From an uncultured Pseudohongiella sp. (GTDB lineage: Bacteria > Pseudomonadota > Gammaproteobacteria > Pseudomonadales > Pseudohongiellaceae): a DNA stretch of 64,000 nucleotides. Under the pieces are notes generated by a model, which was not told the DNA's origin, searched no databases, and worked only from the letters and a program-made list of their open reading frames with translations. The stretch covers positions 2,586,438 through 2,650,437 of the forward strand of contig OX638341.1 of the NCBI GenBank assembly GCA_951812965.1, given 5' to 3'. Below, one piece after another: positions 15,687 to 33,501 of the stretch. Each line of letters begins with the position of its first letter. The stretch's first letter is position 1. A program made the position numbers and the translations under genes.

Positions 15687-18600
15687 TCAATCCGTCAATT
15701 CGGCAAACTGTTTGTCCAGTCTTTCCTTTGAAATCGGGAGACTTGTGCCCAGCCGCTGGGCAAAAAGAGAAACTCTGAATTCCTCTATCGACCAGCGCAG
15801 GGTCTGGATTAGCCTGGAAGCCCCCCGGGTCGAGTGCAATTGCTCATATCTGTCCCAATAGTATGCCACTTCTCGGGTGCTTTTTTCATCCGCGGGACCG
15901 AAAAACGGCGCTTTTTCAAGCCGTAATCTTATGCCGTCCAGATAACGCGGAAACTGCCTCAGCCACTCAAAGGCGGTGTCCTGCAGAAAGTTCTCCGGAA
16001 ACATGCGTTCGAGCTGGCCTTGAATATCCGCCCGCACATATTGACCCGAACCGGTAGACAGGTCGGCCAATCGCCGCCGGATTTCATGTGTTTGTTCCAG
16101 CATGAGGGTCAGCAATTGCTCCAGTTCGTCCGCAAGCACAGGCAGCCTGGGCGCATTGCGCTCCAGCCGTTCGGTAAATTCCTGTCGATTGCGGGGCAAT
16201 TCCTCATTTAGGGAAAAACTTTCCAGATAACAGGTAATAATGGCGTCTTTCTCGACTTCGCCTAATCCCGACATGAAGAAAATGCGGGCGGCGTTTGCAT
16301 TCCGGAAGCGAAGGAAACGCTTGCGCAAGGCATTTTTACGGGCGACGGTGCGCAACATGAAAAGGCGCATTGCGCCTTGCCGGCTTTGCGTCTCGGCTTC
16401 CTGCCTGTTGTCGAGCAATTTCACCGAGACTGAGGAGATCTCGTCCACAAGCGCGGGATACCGTAACAGAACGACGTCAGAGCCGATTTGCACCTGTTCA
16501 GGCAGGTATTCGAAATCCCAGTCCTGCAGGCCGCTGCGCTCAAGTGTGTGACGTTGATGCCGGACCACCGGCGCACTCCCGGCAAAGCGCTCGCGCAATG
16601 CCGCCAAATCGTCCCCTTCCGCCATTACGCGCCCTTTCGGGTCGACGACTTGCAACATGGTTCGCAGGTGACCCGGTAATACGACCGCAACCAGTTCCCG
16701 GCGTTCGACCCGATTGCCTCCGGCCCGATTCATCTGTGACAACAGCGAATCCGCCAATTCGCCGTCGGAGCGTTGCATCCCGGGCAAGACGCTATCGACG
16801 AAATCCGGCACCGGAATGAATTTTCGCCGTTTGCTCTTGGGCAGGCCCCGTATCAGGGCGATGCATTTTTCGCGCACCAGGCCAGGTATGGCCCAATCGA
16901 GGTCGGCGGCGGACAATTGCGCCACGAGTTCGGCGGGGACGCGCAAACTCGCACCGTCGCGACTGCTTCCCGGATCGAATACATAGTCCACCGGCAGCAC
17001 ATTGCTTTGCACCTTGATCTGATCGGGAAACTGGCGCTGCAACTCAGCGAGCGTCTCGCCGCGGAACAGTCCGGCCTGTTCCATATCCAGCGAGCGGTTG
17101 CGCACTGCCGGATCTTCGGCCAGCCAGCACTCGAGCGTCCTGGTGGAAACCACCGATTCCGGCAGGCGCTGATCGTAGAACCGCTGAATTTCCCGTTCGT
17201 TGACGACGAGTTCCGGGCGGCGGAACTTTTCCTCCTGCTTGCGAAGTTCATCCAGAAACCTTCTGTTTTTTTTCAGGAAATCAGCCTTGCTCCGGATAAG
17301 GTCTTCGACCAGGGCCTGATCCAGAAAGATATCGCGTGCGCCCGCAGTATCGAATCTTGCATAGTCCACCGGAATCATGTCGCGCAAGGCGAGCCCGTAC
17401 AGCACGGTTTTTTCGTGGGCCATTACTTGTTGCCTGTCCGCGCTCCAGAAAGGCTCCCCATACTCCTTGCGCAACAGGTGGCCGGCATATTCGATTACCC
17501 ATTCCGGCTTGATTACGGCGGCCATCGAGGCAAAAGTCCGCGCCGTATCGATCCATTCGCTAGTCACGATCCAGCGTTTGTTCTTGCGCGCCAGCGCCGA
17601 AGAAGGCGCCAGAGTCAGTTTTCGGTTTCTGCTGCCGAGATAAGTCCTGCCGTCATGATGCCGCGCAACCTGGTTCAACGATCCGCTTACCAGCGCGCGA
17701 TGGATTTCGGCATAGCCGGCTTGTTTGCGATTCAGTCCGGCGCCAAGCCGTCGGCAGGCGTTCAACAACTGGCGGTGGATTTCCCGCCATTCCCGCACGC
17801 GCTGGAAGGACAGACGGTATCTGGCGCAAAACTTGCGCAATTGCGATTGGGAGACCCGCTCGTTTTCGCATCGATCCCAAAGCGTGAGCAACCCGAGGAA
17901 GTCCGATTCGGGATGGATGAACTCGGCCCATTTGTCGTCGATTCGCCCGCCCGGCGCCGAATCCCTAAGGTCGCCCAGGCTCATGGCGCTGACGATAATC
18001 AGCACTTCGCGCAGACTTCCCGCCTCGGACGCCGCCACCAGCATGCGCCCCAGTTGCGGCTCGAGCGGTAGTTCGGCCAGCATGCGGCCCGTGCGAGTCA
18101 AGGCTCCCGACTCGGTCAAGGCGCCCAGTTCGCGCAGCAGCCTGCGTCCGTCATTGATTGATTTCTGTTCCGGGGCGTCGAGAAAGGGAAATTCCTCGGG
18201 CCGGCCGAGTTGCAAGGCGCTCATGCGCAGGATCACCGAGGCCAGATTGGAGCGCTTGATCTCGGGATCGGTGAAGTCCGGCCGAGACTGAAAGTCCTCC
18301 TCGCCATACAGACGGATGCAGACGCCGTCGGCGAGTCGGCCGCAACGGCCCTTGCGTTGCTCGGCGCTGGCTCTCGATACGGGTTCTATGGGCAACCGCA
18401 ACAATTTGCGCTGAACGCTGTAACGGCTTATGCGGGCAAAACCGGTGTCGATCACGAAATGAATTCCCGGCACCGTCAACGAAGTTTCCGCCACATTGGT
18501 TGAAAGTACGATGCGGCGGCCACCATGAGGCGCGAAAATGCGTTGCTGTTCGGTGGCCCGCAAGCGCGAATACAAGGGCAGGACCTCCGTATTCGGCATG

Positions 18601-19484
18601 CGGCGCTTGCGCAGAAACGCGGCGGTTTCCCGGATCTCCTTTTCGCTGCTGAGAAAGATCAGGATGTCGCCTTCGCCATGACCGTTGAGTTCCGAGATCG
18701 CTTGTGCGATGGCTGCCATCTGCCGGTCTTCTTCGTCCGCGTCGGGAACAAGTTGCTCCGGCGGACGGTAAAGCGTTTTGACGGGATAGCTGCGGCCGGC
18801 GACGCGGACGATGGGAGCCTGGTTGAAATGCGCGGCGATACGGTCCACGTCCAGAGTCGCGGAGGTGACGATCAATCTCAAATCCTTGCGCCTGGGCAGG
18901 ATCAGTTTCAGATAGCCCAGCAGGAAGTCGATATTGAGCGATCGCTCATGGGCTTCGTCGAGTATCAGCGCCTGGTATTTCTTCAACAGTCGGTCGCGCT
19001 GGATTTCCGCCAGTAATATGCCGTCGGTCATCAGTTTGAGCCAGGCGTCCTCCGGCACACGCTGATCGAAGCGAACCTGGACGCCGACGCCGCGATGGGG
19101 GTGTGCGGCGGGCGTGCGAGGCAGGACGCCGAGCCCGAAGCCTACAGGGACGTATTCACGGCGTCCGCCGCACACCCCCATCGCGGCGTCGGCGTTGAGT
19201 TCTTCGCTGATTCGTGCGGCCACGGACATGGCCGCCAGCCTGCGTGGTTGCGTATGACCGATCATGCCGCGTCGACCGAGTCCCGCGCGCAGGCAGATCT
19301 TGGGCAATTGCGTGGTCTTGCCCGATCCGGTATCTCCCGCGACGATGATGACCTGGTTGCGGGCGAGCAATCCCTCGATTTCGGACGCATGCCGGCTTAT
19401 GGGGAGTTCCGCCGGCAGGGTTATTTCGTTGGGGATCGACTGGATGCGCAATTTGTCGCGCTTGAGCGACCGCGAATTAACCAC
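15687..19484 (-). CDS. hrpA: DEAH-box RNA helicase HrpA with an in-frame palindromic insert
   Basis: This is a large DEAH helicase that in E. coli helps rescue stalled ribosomes. Counting from the GTG at 19484 it has 1265 residues: motif I GDTGSGKTTQ (50-59), HTQPRRLAAMSVAARI (Ia), LILDEAHERSLNIDFLLGYL (motif II), VTSATLD (III), LSTNVAETSLTVPGI (V) and the Q(R)KGRCGR-like motif VI EQRKGRCGRL, then the HA2, OB and long HrpA C-terminal domains. The frame opens at a TTG (19535) inside fadD; the GTG overlaps fadD by 8 bp and is more likely. Residues about 97-134 replace the usual short loop before VQVRFDQRV with a segment encoded by a mobile palindrome (19082-19194). All helicase motifs are intact. 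Confidence 0.93.
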   Translation of the reverse strand: MVNSRSLKRDKLRIQSIPNEITLPAELPISRHASEIEGLLARNQVIIVAGDTGSGKTTQLPKICLRAGLGRRGMIGHTQPRRLAAMSVAARISEELNADAAMGVCGGRREYVPVGFGLGVLPRTPAAHPHRGVGVQVRFDQRVPEDAWLKLMTDGILLAEIQRDRLLKKYQALILDEAHERSLNIDFLLGYLKLILPRRKDLRLIVTSATLDVDRIAAHFNQAPIVRVAGRSYPVKTLYRPPEQLVPDADEEDRQMAAIAQAISELNGHGEGDILIFLSSEKEIRETAAFLRKRRMPNTEVLPLYSRLRATEQQRIFAPHGGRRIVLSTNVAETSLTVPGIHFVIDTGFARISRYSVQRKLLRLPIEPVSRASAEQRKGRCGRLADGVCIRLYGEEDFQSRPDFTDPEIKRSNLASVILRMSALQLGRPEEFPFLDAPEQKSINDGRRLLRELGALTESGALTRTGRMLAELPLEPQLGRMLVAASEAGSLREVLIIVSAMSLGDLRDSAPGGRIDDKWAEFIHPESDFLGLLTLWDRCENERVSQSQLRKFCARYRLSFQRVREWREIHRQLLNACRRLGAGLNRKQAGYAEIHRALVSGSLNQVARHHDGRTYLGSRNRKLTLAPSSALARKNKRWIVTSEWIDTARTFASMAAVIKPEWVIEYAGHLLRKEYGEPFWSADRQQVMAHEKTVLYGLALRDMIPVDYARFDTAGARDIFLDQALVEDLIRSKADFLKKNRRFLDELRKQEEKFRRPELVVNEREIQRFYDQRLPESVVSTRTLECWLAEDPAVRNRSLDMEQAGLFRGETLAELQRQFPDQIKVQSNVLPVDYVFDPGSSRDGASLRVPAELVAQLSAADLDWAIPGLVREKCIALIRGLPKSKRRKFIPVPDFVDSVLPGMQRSDGELADSLLSQMNRAGGNRVERRELVAVVLPGHLRTMLQVVDPKGRVMAEGDDLAALRERFAGSAPVVRHQRHTLERSGLQDWDFEYLPEQVQIGSDVVLLRYPALVDEISSVSVKLLDNRQEAETQSRQGAMRLFMLRTVARKNALRKRFLRFRNANAARIFFMSGLGEVEKDAIITCYLESFSLNEELPRNRQEFTERLERNAPRLPVLADELEQLLTLMLEQTHEIRRRLADLSTGSGQYVRADIQGQLERMFPENFLQDTAFEWLRQFPRYLDGIRLRLEKAPFFGPADEKSTREVAYYWDRYEQLHSTRGASRLIQTLRWSIEEFRVSLFAQRLGTSLPISKERLDKQFAELTD
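19082..19194. repeat. Large palindromic element inserted in frame in hrpA
   Basis: Two perfect 30-bp inverted arms (19082-19111 and 19165-19194) flank a 53-bp core (19112-19164). The core is almost identical to 33385-33436, with one single-base indel, while the arms differ between the two copies but stay exactly self-complementary. On the hrpA strand the element reads through without a stop, giving MGVCGGRREYVPVGFGLGVL and then PRTPAAHPHRG. The core itself holds an inner inverted pair, GGACGCCG and CGGCGTCC. Confidence 0.93.
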
Positions 19485-21099
19485 GCAATTCCCGCCGCAG
19501 AATCTTGCCGATATTGGATTTTGGCAAGTCCGCAACGAATTCGACTTTGCGCGGCACCTTGTAGGCGGCGAGCCCCTGTCGGCACCAGGACTGAATGTCC
19601 TCGGCCCCGGGCGCTTCTTCTCCGGCGACCACGAACAGTTTCACGGCCTCTCCGGTTCGTTCGTCGGTCACACCGATTGCCGCACTTTCAACGACTTGCG
19701 GGTGACGATTGACCCAGTCTTCGATTTCGTTGGGAAATACATTGAAGCCGGAAACGAGGATCATGTCCTTCTTGCGGTCGACGATGCTGATATAGCCGTC
19801 TTCGCTGATGCTGACGTAATCGCCGGTGCTGAACCAGCCATCCGGATTGATACTGTCCTGGGTAGCCTCTTCCCTGCCGTAATACCCGGCCATTACCTGG
19901 GGTCCGCGAACCTGCAATTCACCTACGGCGCCCAAAGGCAGTTCATTCGCCTCCTCGTCGATCACGCGCAATTCAGTTTCGGGCACTGCCTTGCCTACCG
20001 TGCCCTTTCGCACCTGGCCCGGAATATTTACCGCGACGACCGGCGAGCATTCGGTCAGGCCGTATCCTTCGAGAATTTCGCATCCGGTCAATTCCTGCCA
20101 TTCCTCGGCAATCGAACTTGACATCGCCATGCCGCCGGCGCCGCAAAATCGATAGGTCGAGAAATCCACTTGCCTGATTTTCGGATACCTGAGCAAGGCC
20201 AGATACAAGGTGTTGATGCCCACAAATCCGTGAATCCTGTTGCGCTTCAGCAATTTGATCAGCGCGTCGAGGTCGCGCGGATTCGGCACCAGAATGTTGT
20301 GACTACCGGCATAAGCCATGGTCAGCAGATGCAACTGGAAGGCGTAGGTGTGATAAAGCGGCAGTGGCCCGACAATGTTGGCGAATTGATCCTCGATCAC
20401 CAGCGAAGTTCTCGAACGCAACTGCATCATGTTGGCGATGAGATTGCGATGCGTAAGCATGGCGCCCTTGGCGACGCCGGTGGTGCCGCCGGTATAGAGA
20501 ATCAGGGCGGTGTATTCTCCCGACCTGGCCGCGGCGGATTCGATCGGCTCCGAGGCCACCGCCTCGCGGAAGAAGTGCGCTCCGGGCAATTCATACTCGG
20601 GAACCATCTTGCGCAGGTGTTTTGCCGCCAGATCGATTAGCTTTCCTTTCGGCCGGGGAATCAGATCTCCCAGGCGGGCAATGATCACGTGCTCGATGTC
20701 CGTATCTTCGACAACACTTTCGATCTTGTCGCAGAAGGCTTCCAGAACGACTACAGCCTTCGCTCCGGAATCGGCGAACTGGTGCTTCATTTCCGGGGCG
20801 GTATAGAGCGGATTGGTTGTGACTATGACAAGGTCGGCCTTGATTGCTGCATAGACTACTACGGGAAATTGCAGCAAATTCGGCAGTTGAATCGCGAGCC
20901 TGTCACCCGGATTCAAATGCAACTGATTGCGTAGGAACCCGGCGAAGCGACTGCTCAATTCATCGATTTCGCGATAGCTAAGACTGTGCCCGAAACAGGA
21001 AAAAGCCGGCAGCGGGCCATGGGCCGCGGCAACGTGGTCCAGTACCTCGTTCAGTGAGGCGTATTGTTCAGGGCGCAATTCCGGGGGAAGTTTTTCCAT
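19477..21099 (-). CDS. fadD: Long-chain fatty-acid-CoA ligase
   Basis: This AMP-forming acyl-CoA synthetase activates long-chain fatty acids for beta-oxidation or lipid synthesis at the inner membrane. Across 540 residues the adenylation motifs are clear: the P-loop-like LILYTGGTTGVAKGAMLTHR, LPLYHTYAFQ, GYGLTECSPVVAVN, the hinge region GDYVSISEDGYISIVDRKKD, and the C-terminal catalytic Lys in VPRKVEFVADLPKSNIGKIL. Length and motif spacing match FadD (about 560). It lies upstream of hrpA, overlapping that gene's likely start, an order I recall from Pseudomonas. Exact chain-length preference cannot be read from sequence. Confidence 0.92.
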   Translation of the reverse strand: MEKLPPELRPEQYASLNEVLDHVAAAHGPLPAFSCFGHSLSYREIDELSSRFAGFLRNQLHLNPGDRLAIQLPNLLQFPVVVYAAIKADLVIVTTNPLYTAPEMKHQFADSGAKAVVVLEAFCDKIESVVEDTDIEHVIIARLGDLIPRPKGKLIDLAAKHLRKMVPEYELPGAHFFREAVASEPIESAAARSGEYTALILYTGGTTGVAKGAMLTHRNLIANMMQLRSRTSLVIEDQFANIVGPLPLYHTYAFQLHLLTMAYAGSHNILVPNPRDLDALIKLLKRNRIHGFVGINTLYLALLRYPKIRQVDFSTYRFCGAGGMAMSSSIAEEWQELTGCEILEGYGLTECSPVVAVNIPGQVRKGTVGKAVPETELRVIDEEANELPLGAVGELQVRGPQVMAGYYGREEATQDSINPDGWFSTGDYVSISEDGYISIVDRKKDMILVSGFNVFPNEIEDWVNRHPQVVESAAIGVTDERTGEAVKLFVVAGEEAPGAEDIQSWCRQGLAAYKVPRKVEFVADLPKSNIGKILRRELRG

Positions 21100-32995: not shown

Positions 32996-33024
32996 ATATG
33001 AGGTCTGGAGCGCATTACTTCAAC
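32996..33024 (-). promoter_or_regulatory. Sigma-32-like (heat shock) promoter of clpB
   Basis: On the minus strand GTTGAAG (33024-33018) is followed after 14 bp by CCTCATAT (33003-32996). The heat-shock consensus is CTTGAA and CCCCATNT at 13-15 bp spacing, so the -10 matches all but one base. Transcription would start near 32988, about 30 bases before the clpB ATG. This fits ClpB's known control by sigma-32. Confidence 0.6.
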
Positions 33025-33034
33025 CGGGCATCTC

Positions 33035-33142
33035 GCCGCTGTCGGTTTAAGGTATCGGGCGGACGCCGTAAATACGTCCCTGTAGGCTCTACTCAGACAT
33101 CCATGTCTGAGAAGCCACCCGATACCTTAAACCGACAGCGGC
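33035..33142. repeat. Large palindromic element, hybrid type
   Basis: Perfect 25-bp inverted arms (33035-33059 and 33118-33142; arm GCCGCTGTCGGTTTAAGGTA plus TCGGG) enclose a 58-bp core. The first half of the core, CGGACGCCGTAAATACGTCC and CTGTAGGCTC, matches the core of the hrpA and pgeF-side elements. The second half differs and holds its own hairpin, CTCAGACATCCATGTCTGAG (33092-33111). It lies just beyond the -35 box of clpB. Confidence 0.9.
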
Positions 33143-33372
33143 TTACGGCATGCCGAACTGTTTGATGCAGATGAGGTTTGTTATGTGGCTGTCGATTGGC
33201 ACGCTCATTCAGAGCCTCCGCCGTAGGGCTCTACTCAGACACCCATGTCTGAGAAGCCGCCCGGTACTTCAAACCGACAGCGGCTTACGGCATTTCATAC
33301 TGTTTAATGCAGATGAAGTTTGTTATGCAGTTGCAGGTCAGTACGCACAGTCAGAGCCCCCGCCGTAGTGGC
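33089..33372. repeat. 142-bp tandem duplication with fossils of the pgeF 3' end
   Basis: Matching marks recur at a constant offset of 142 bp: CTACTCAGACA at 33089 and 33231, ACCGACAGCGGCTTACGGCA at 33131 and 33273, and ATGCAGATGARGTTTGTTATG at 33165 and 33307. The last block resembles the real pgeF end at 33518 (ATGCAAATTAGGTTTGCCATG). On the minus strand the copies read ITNLICIK and ITNFICIK, against ANLICINK in PgeF. The region is therefore built of repeat-element pieces plus duplicated gene tail. Confidence 0.8.
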
Positions 33373-33465
33373 TGTGTGCAGCGGGCGTGCGAGGCAGGAC
33401 GCCGAGCCCGAGCCTACAGGGACGTATTCACGGCGTCCGCTGCACACAGCCACTACGGCGGGGGC
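33356..33465. repeat. Large palindromic element beside pgeF
   Basis: Perfect 29-bp inverted arms (33356-33384 and 33437-33465) enclose a 52-bp core (33385-33436) that matches the hrpA core except for one missing A. The arms (outer part GCCCCCGCCGTAGTGG, inner part CTGTGTGCAGCGG) differ from the hrpA arms at about 6 of the inner 21 positions, and each change is matched on the other arm. It lies 37 bp beyond the pgeF stop. Confidence 0.93.
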
Positions 33466-33501
33466 GGATCGAAGCCACAGTACTCACTGTTTGATGGGCT
33501 G

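Follow-up and report, generated by a model that had tools for sequence, protein, structure and literature searches.

What is a long palindrome doing inside the reading frame of a conserved helicase gene? The window (the whole stretch of DNA that was analysed, 64,000 nucleotides from an uncultured Pseudohongiella, whose genome is called G000 below) carries one in hrpA. A sequence-only reading had described perfect 30-bp arms around a 53-bp core, in frame and free of stops. The palindrome is real and its core is indeed 53 nt, but the perfect arms are 31 bp, with 19081-19111 pairing with 19165-19195. A wider definition of the arms gives 34 nt at 97% complementarity. The frame at 15687-19535 on the minus strand is open all through it. 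The account that we favour, with a probability of about 0.6 for the whole of it, is that of a non-coding gammaproteobacterial hairpin that would have entered hrpA once, whose arms and core are reshaped by template switching, whose RNA binds CsrA, and whose family includes the Rfam motif TwoAYGGAY. Four things go beyond the first reading: the two CsrA-type hairpins, the arms that change in concert, the inversion of the core from one species to another, and the relative in Rfam. The features at the locus are:

15687..19535, minus strand: hrpA, ATP-dependent RNA helicase (DEAH box) with the insert in frame, identified by TIGR01967 and Pfam domains
19081..19111, plus strand: left palindrome arm, 31 bp, perfect
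19112..19164, plus strand: conserved core of the dispersed element; the RNA-sense strand is plus, antisense to hrpA
19120..19130, plus strand: hairpin 1, GGC[AGGAC]GCC, variable stem with a GGA loop, seen in the predicted fold and in the copy comparison
19142..19156, plus strand: hairpin 2, CTAC[AGGGAC]GTATT, a hexaloop with GGA closed by AC and GU, like the CsrA SELEX consensus, seen in the copy comparison
19165..19195, plus strand: right palindrome arm, 31 bp, perfect

The 113-nt palindrome folds at -91.6 kcal/mol against -54.7 +/- 3.9 for 200 shuffles, a z-score of -9.5. It had been credited with about 38 added residues. The net gain is 29 (63 residues against 34 between HTQPRR and VRF) because the outer arm on one side coincides, on the hrpA strand, with native GVGV codons.

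An insert in a gene that probably still works

The protein matches the HrpA model TIGR01967 at 1302 bits (cut-off 722.75) and a second one, NF008348, at 1145, below its cut-off of 1400. The Pfam domains Helicase_C, HA2, OB and DUF3418 score above their cut-offs. DEAD falls narrowly short, at 25.7 against 26 bits, because the insert splits that domain. The alignment to E. coli HrpA is interrupted exactly at the insert, where the query runs from 117 to 146 while the chain stays at residue 150. The TTG listed as start codon, which overlaps the upstream gene, was probably placed too far upstream. Between G000 and G406, another genome that carries the insert, hrpA has dN 0.103 and dS 0.716. This dN/dS of about 0.14 means that the gene is under purifying selection with the insert present. 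We infer that HrpA with its insert still works, so the insert would be a passenger that is read in frame.

The segment between HTQPRR and VRF was read in 29 of 30 hrpA loci; the remaining one had no pattern match and is not counted. It is 34 residues long in 26 loci, 37 in G022, 63 in G000 and 90 in G021. Two loci were found later, in G406, which carries the element, and in G407, which is without it. That makes 31 loci read: 3 occupied (G000, G021 and G406), 1 with a 3-residue scar (G022) and 27 empty. The sequence-only reading had proposed looking for the empty site in HrpA from relatives, and there it is. One could still suppose that the segment is a native loop of HrpA, or that hrpA is a pseudogene, and the DEAD score just below cut-off could be taken that way. 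We give this almost no credence and reject both versions of it. The 27 empty loci of 31 and the copies elsewhere speak against a native loop, while the dN/dS of about 0.14 and the TIGR01967 match far above cut-off speak against a pseudogene. The earlier reading had said that the same segment in HrpA from distant bacteria, with no matching repeat elsewhere, would count against it, as would a frameshifted hrpA. What was found is the reverse on both counts: empty sites with a dispersed core, and purifying selection with a full-length HrpA match. In G024 a second hrpA-like copy, at C1:178555-182276, is broken by several stops, and an open copy is on contig C37.

A maximum likelihood tree of HrpA, built without the inserted segment, has the topology (G407,G018),(G000,(G022,(G021,G406))). 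G407 and G018 fall outside the clade of carriers, whose forks have support values of 93/97, 96/96 and 100/98. The simplest account needs a single insertion, before the clade of four species, and a single loss, in G022. The ancestor of that clade would have received the element in hrpA once, at a place that follows motif Ia and precedes the next conserved strand; an insert without stops and with a length that is a multiple of three was presumably tolerated there. In the lineage of G022 the core and inner arms would have been lost, which would leave the 3-residue scar.

The hrpA cores of G000 and G406 differ at only 2 of 57 sites while the gene differs by 19% (P 0.0008), which is too few for the core to be explained as a simple neutral passenger. 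Either it was refreshed from other copies, or it was re-inserted, or it is constrained inside the gene.

A dispersed element of the Gammaproteobacteria

The core repeats within the window at 33408 (plus) and 33071 (minus), where 100 shuffles lead one to expect none. The sequence-only reading had noticed the core between genes at 33385-33436, and a third copy of the element does lie there. The copies outside hrpA are:

33035..33142, minus strand: second full copy, RF01731-like (38.5 bits, gathering score 43)
33229..33253, minus strand: decayed copy, hairpin-1 part
33354..33466, plus strand: third copy, intergenic

The region 33000-33480 therefore looks like a BIME-like cluster, with three copies in 480 bp, two of them full and in opposite orientation and one decayed.

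With the 113-bp palindrome as query, the 3.43-Mb genome has 46 matching places at E<=0.001, a number that includes the query, its own reverse-strand match and separate pieces of single copies. Together with the empty hrpA sites this bears out the claim that the segment is a dispersed repeat and not a native loop. Thirteen of 38 genomes searched as relatives (own included) have matches, most of them in G018, G021 and G022 of the same genus. Across a sample of the class, 32 of 369 genomes, own included, have the 26-nt core motif with at most one mismatch, and the reversed pattern has no match in these 369. The highest copy number is 335, in G286. In a phylum-wide sample the motif is present in 14 of 398 genomes (own included), all of the same class, and it is absent from the 261 genomes of other classes. 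The named host organisms of element matches are Gammaproteobacteria as well. We reject a plasmid, phage or viral carrier at the settings used: the element has no match in plasmids or phages at E 0.01, and the exact 26-nt motif was not found in viral contigs.

Where do the copies sit? Neighbourhoods were judged with codon-usage gene calling. In G000 just 1 of 24 evaluated core-pattern copies is clearly inside a gene, and it is the one in hrpA; a second intragenic call, L015, was discounted, as the flank on its left scores as non-coding. The hrpA case is therefore an exception for a largely intergenic element. The orientations of the neighbouring genes are +|+ 13, +|- 11, -|+ 10 and -|- 15 for the 49 of 79 copies that have both neighbours called. 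There is no preferred orientation among them, so a role in 3'UTRs is without support, and we reject a cis-regulatory position on the same count.

Paired arms and inverted cores

The four-genome set gave 83 candidates. Three were dropped as spurious and 15 for short flanks, and 14 of the 65 with full flanks were dropped since their inner 12 positions were unpaired (some are decayed or have indels, and at least one is spurious). In the 51 selected copies 1162 of 1196 arm pairs are Watson-Crick (97%), with 18 G.T, 3 A.C and 13 others. The outer 12 columns lie outside the filter, and there 569 of 584 pairs are Watson-Crick; each copy was counted up to the end of its pairing, which three copies reach at 14-15. 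The arms vary widely between copies, and many columns show all four pair types. If right arms are dealt between copies the pairing has a mean of 0.577 and a highest value of 0.634 in 500 trials. If the arms are slid by one position it falls to 0.277. In other genomes the arms are unrelated in sequence yet paired, although 14 of 37 motif copies from other genera have no arm of 12 pairs by the rule used.

The same behaviour can be followed at single sites. Inside hrpA, pairs that changed on both sides and kept their pairing number 4 of 30 between G000 and G406, 2 between G000 and G021, and 6 between G021 and G406, against 2 of 30 one-sided changes in each comparison. Two of three orthologous intergenic pairs have 6 and 1 compensated changes out of 27, with 1 one-sided change each. 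The arms of the third (G021 C180) have decayed, with 15 one-sided changes and 2 double changes that do not pair. The cores turn as well. In G000 the hrpA core lies antisense to the gene; in G406 and G021 it lies in the sense direction, and the G021 one is expanded and decayed. Between genes, a comparison of G021 C247 with G406 C13 shows the entire element turned round, unequal ends included, with different arm sequences. G021 C139, like the inverted flanks at certain contig ends, has the look of an assembly chimera, and none of these was counted as a flip.

Template switching is reported to homogenise the arms of inverted repeats and to invert the spacers between them, with yeast coding genes among the cases (PMC8604942). 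A single known mechanism would thus account for concerted arms and flips alike. The spacers described there are a few bases, far shorter than the present core. We suggest that DNA polymerase switches templates between the arms and copies arm mutations across, which would keep the palindrome nearly perfect, and that such a switch flipped the hrpA core, accounting for the opposite orientations seen in G000 and in G406 and G021. The hrpA locus would be a natural record of arm homogenisation and core inversion in a gene under purifying selection. This record makes template switching at palindromes testable across species.

One can imagine a scenario where the arms are paired purely by selection on RNA structure and the opposite cores are independent insertions at the same site. 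The arm pairs do have a strand signal. G.T outnumbers A.C by 18 to 3 in the four-genome set (p 0.0015). Beyond that set the asymmetry is weaker, at 7 to 1 across the remaining species of the genus (p 0.07, 6 arm-bearing copies) and 17 to 6 in other genera (p 0.035, 23 arm-bearing of 37 motif copies). All these p values are optimistic, since related copies do not count as independent. Such an excess of G.T over A.C is what an RNA of that strand should show; a DNA process that is neutral to strand should not produce it. The conserved loops and core motifs fit this scenario too, as do the differing arm sequences at the flipped intergenic site, and hrpA cores as alike as those of G000 and G406 would be in keeping with a fresh insertion. 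Against it, compensated changes are also present in hrpA, and there the element runs antisense to the mRNA in one species but along it in others. G.U intermediates are also rare, at 1.5-3.5% of arm pairs, and such a share is low for a stem under RNA selection alone. Two opposite insertions at exactly the same site are unlikely when the carriers are monophyletic and G000 and G021 share inner arms. We consider selection on RNA alone a doubtful explanation, though the most serious of the rivals. Since the strand asymmetry is there and the G.U share is low, we think that RNA selection and DNA-level correction both act on the arms.

Two GGA hairpins

Outside hrpA the element appears to be shaped as an RNA, with a long, freely varying stem and two short GGA hairpins at the spacing used by CsrA/RsmA. 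Hairpin 1 lay outside the search motif. The best local upstream hairpin nevertheless has a GGA loop in 34 of 46 copies, against 8.8% in shuffles; of the other 12, at least 7 can be seen by eye to have a shorter GGA hairpin. The stem of hairpin 1 varies freely. Hairpin 2 takes the form CUAC[AGGGAY]GUAUU or CUCC[AGGGAY]GGAUU. Of 49 copies, 37 have A-T and 12 have C-G as its varying outer pair, with no other combination; the 37 copies from other genera divide into 27 with A-T and 10 with C-G. In the minimum-energy fold of the hrpA copy hairpin 1 is present and hairpin 2 is missing.

The SELEX consensus for CsrA is given as RUACARGGAUGU, in most cases with AC and GU closing a hexaloop, and the CsrA dimer is described as bridging sites 10-63 nt apart (PMC7652899). 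The GGAs of the hrpA copy start at 19124 and 19148, 24 nt apart and both in hairpin loops, the second by copy comparison. The same SELEX source suggests that very stable stems disfavour CsrA (PMC7652899). The CsrB/RsmZ-type sRNAs likewise have GGA in hairpin loops and two sites at bridging distance. The present candidate sites differ from them in being dispersed, in tens to hundreds of copies, inside long palindromes. CsrA is present in 13 of 14 genomes searched. To our knowledge it is nearly universal in the class, so its presence tests little. We predict that transcripts of the element bind CsrA. Should the copies be transcribed, their two-site hairpins, scattered in tens to hundreds, could set the level of free CsrA.

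Relation to known families

TwoAYGGAY (RF01731, clan CL00106) resembles the element in its long variable outer stem and its two hairpins with CAYGGAYG-type loops. It is listed for human gut, Gammaproteobacteria and Clostridiales (PMC2864571) and is predicted to bind CsrA (PMC4333381). The element likewise has two (A)YGGA(Y)-loop hairpins inside a long outer stem. Compared with TwoAYGGAY its hairpin 2 is shorter and has the loop AGGGAY. In the hrpA copy the loops read AGGAC and AGGGAC, which departs from a strict AYGGAY. The gathering score of 43 is reached once, in G354, where a match of 44.1 bits has two CATGGATG hairpins inside long paired arms, which is the same build; G354 copies that score close to the threshold are built alike. 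In G000 the best score is the 38.5 bits of the neighbouring copy, and the RF01731 search listed no match to the hrpA copy. The model misses nearly all copies, with matches in 2 of 16 genomes at E<=0.001. Rfam microRNA matches fall below their gathering scores and we take them as chance matches of long hairpins. We think that the family of the element includes TwoAYGGAY. The accessible part of the TwoAYGGAY literature treats it as an RNA motif and mentions neither dispersed copies nor copies inserted in frame. Our literature search, which took in few subscription papers, found nothing on the present repeat as a dispersed element.

The first reading was reminded of the Rickettsia palindromic elements (RPEs). 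These are described as palindromic repeats of 105-146 bp, found between genes and in frame in conserved protein genes, in 19 reading frames in all, and an RPE-bearing protein, Gmk, kept its activity (PMC2229807). Our element is also a dispersed palindrome of 100-150 bp that lies in frame in a conserved gene, one gene only. The likeness holds as an analogy of effect and not as membership. RPEs belong to other bacteria, they occupy 19 frames against 1 of 24 copies here, and the two were likened by description and not by sequence. The accessible part of the review mentions no CsrA-type loops for RPEs (PMC2229807). The coding palindromes of Nematomorpha mitochondria are also perfect inverted repeats inside working protein genes, but both of their arms encode conserved protein and the abstract names no dispersed element (PMC6649704).

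The case brings together three subjects that are usually kept separate: selfish palindromes able to enter proteins, a family of structured RNAs that has no assigned role, and the global regulator CsrA. One could go further and propose a large mobile, selfish family of CsrA-decoy RNAs that spread through the Gammaproteobacteria, reaching hundreds of copies in some genomes, with a two-site CsrA hairpin in each copy, stems continually rewritten and flipped by template switching, TwoAYGGAY as one branch and in-frame protein inserts in either orientation. This wider picture is tentative, and we would put it somewhat short of even odds.

How the element moves

REP/BIME elements and MITEs are, like the present element, short, palindromic, dispersed and non-autonomous. 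The comparison with REP suggests movement as single-stranded DNA by a Y1 (RAYT/TnpA-REP) transposase. The hairpin, the mostly intergenic position, the high copy number, and the close pairs and tandem arrays fit this, and Y1_Tnp is present in 8 of 14 genomes searched. Its absence from the element's home genome, G000, separates the element from REP/BIME with a RAYT. Y1_Tnp was also not found in G018, G021 or G022, nor in G276 and G354, which carry the motif. No GTAG/GGAG-type foot, as in REP-type elements, was seen by eye adjoining the hairpin. We consider Y1 transposition quite unlikely.

Movement through an RNA copy by a reverse transcriptase would explain the constraint at the RNA level, and the RNA-strand asymmetry agrees with it. 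RVT_1 is found in 4 of 18 genomes, with 12 matches in G286, the genome of 335 motif copies. It was not found in G000, G018, G021, G022, G406 or G407, and we regard this route as even less probable than the Y1 one.

The mark of a MITE insertion would be a target-site duplication. None was identified here, where the empty hrpA site is too diverged for such a reading and 3 of 7 G021 sites could be aligned in G406. Of these three, one is flipped, one is truncated, and one is without the element together with its flank.

Other observations on the repeats

Many draft contigs of G022 and G021 stop inside the element, and at some of the ends unique flanking sequence is repeated in inverted form. Short-read assemblies thus seem to be broken and misjoined by the element. 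Another dispersed repeat, about AGATTCTGCGACTCCGCTTCGCTGCGCGCAGAATGAC, makes up approximately 25 of the 43 matches of the G406 search and is found close to several copies of the element. Tandem arrays occur at G583:C1:94443-95378, with five copies at a spacing of ~227 bp, and at L162 (G359), with three units. L021, L023 and L026 have an alternative second half after CCTACAGGG (gtgtaggcaagcgtttatgaagcgcagcttcatg...), a possible modular variant of the core.
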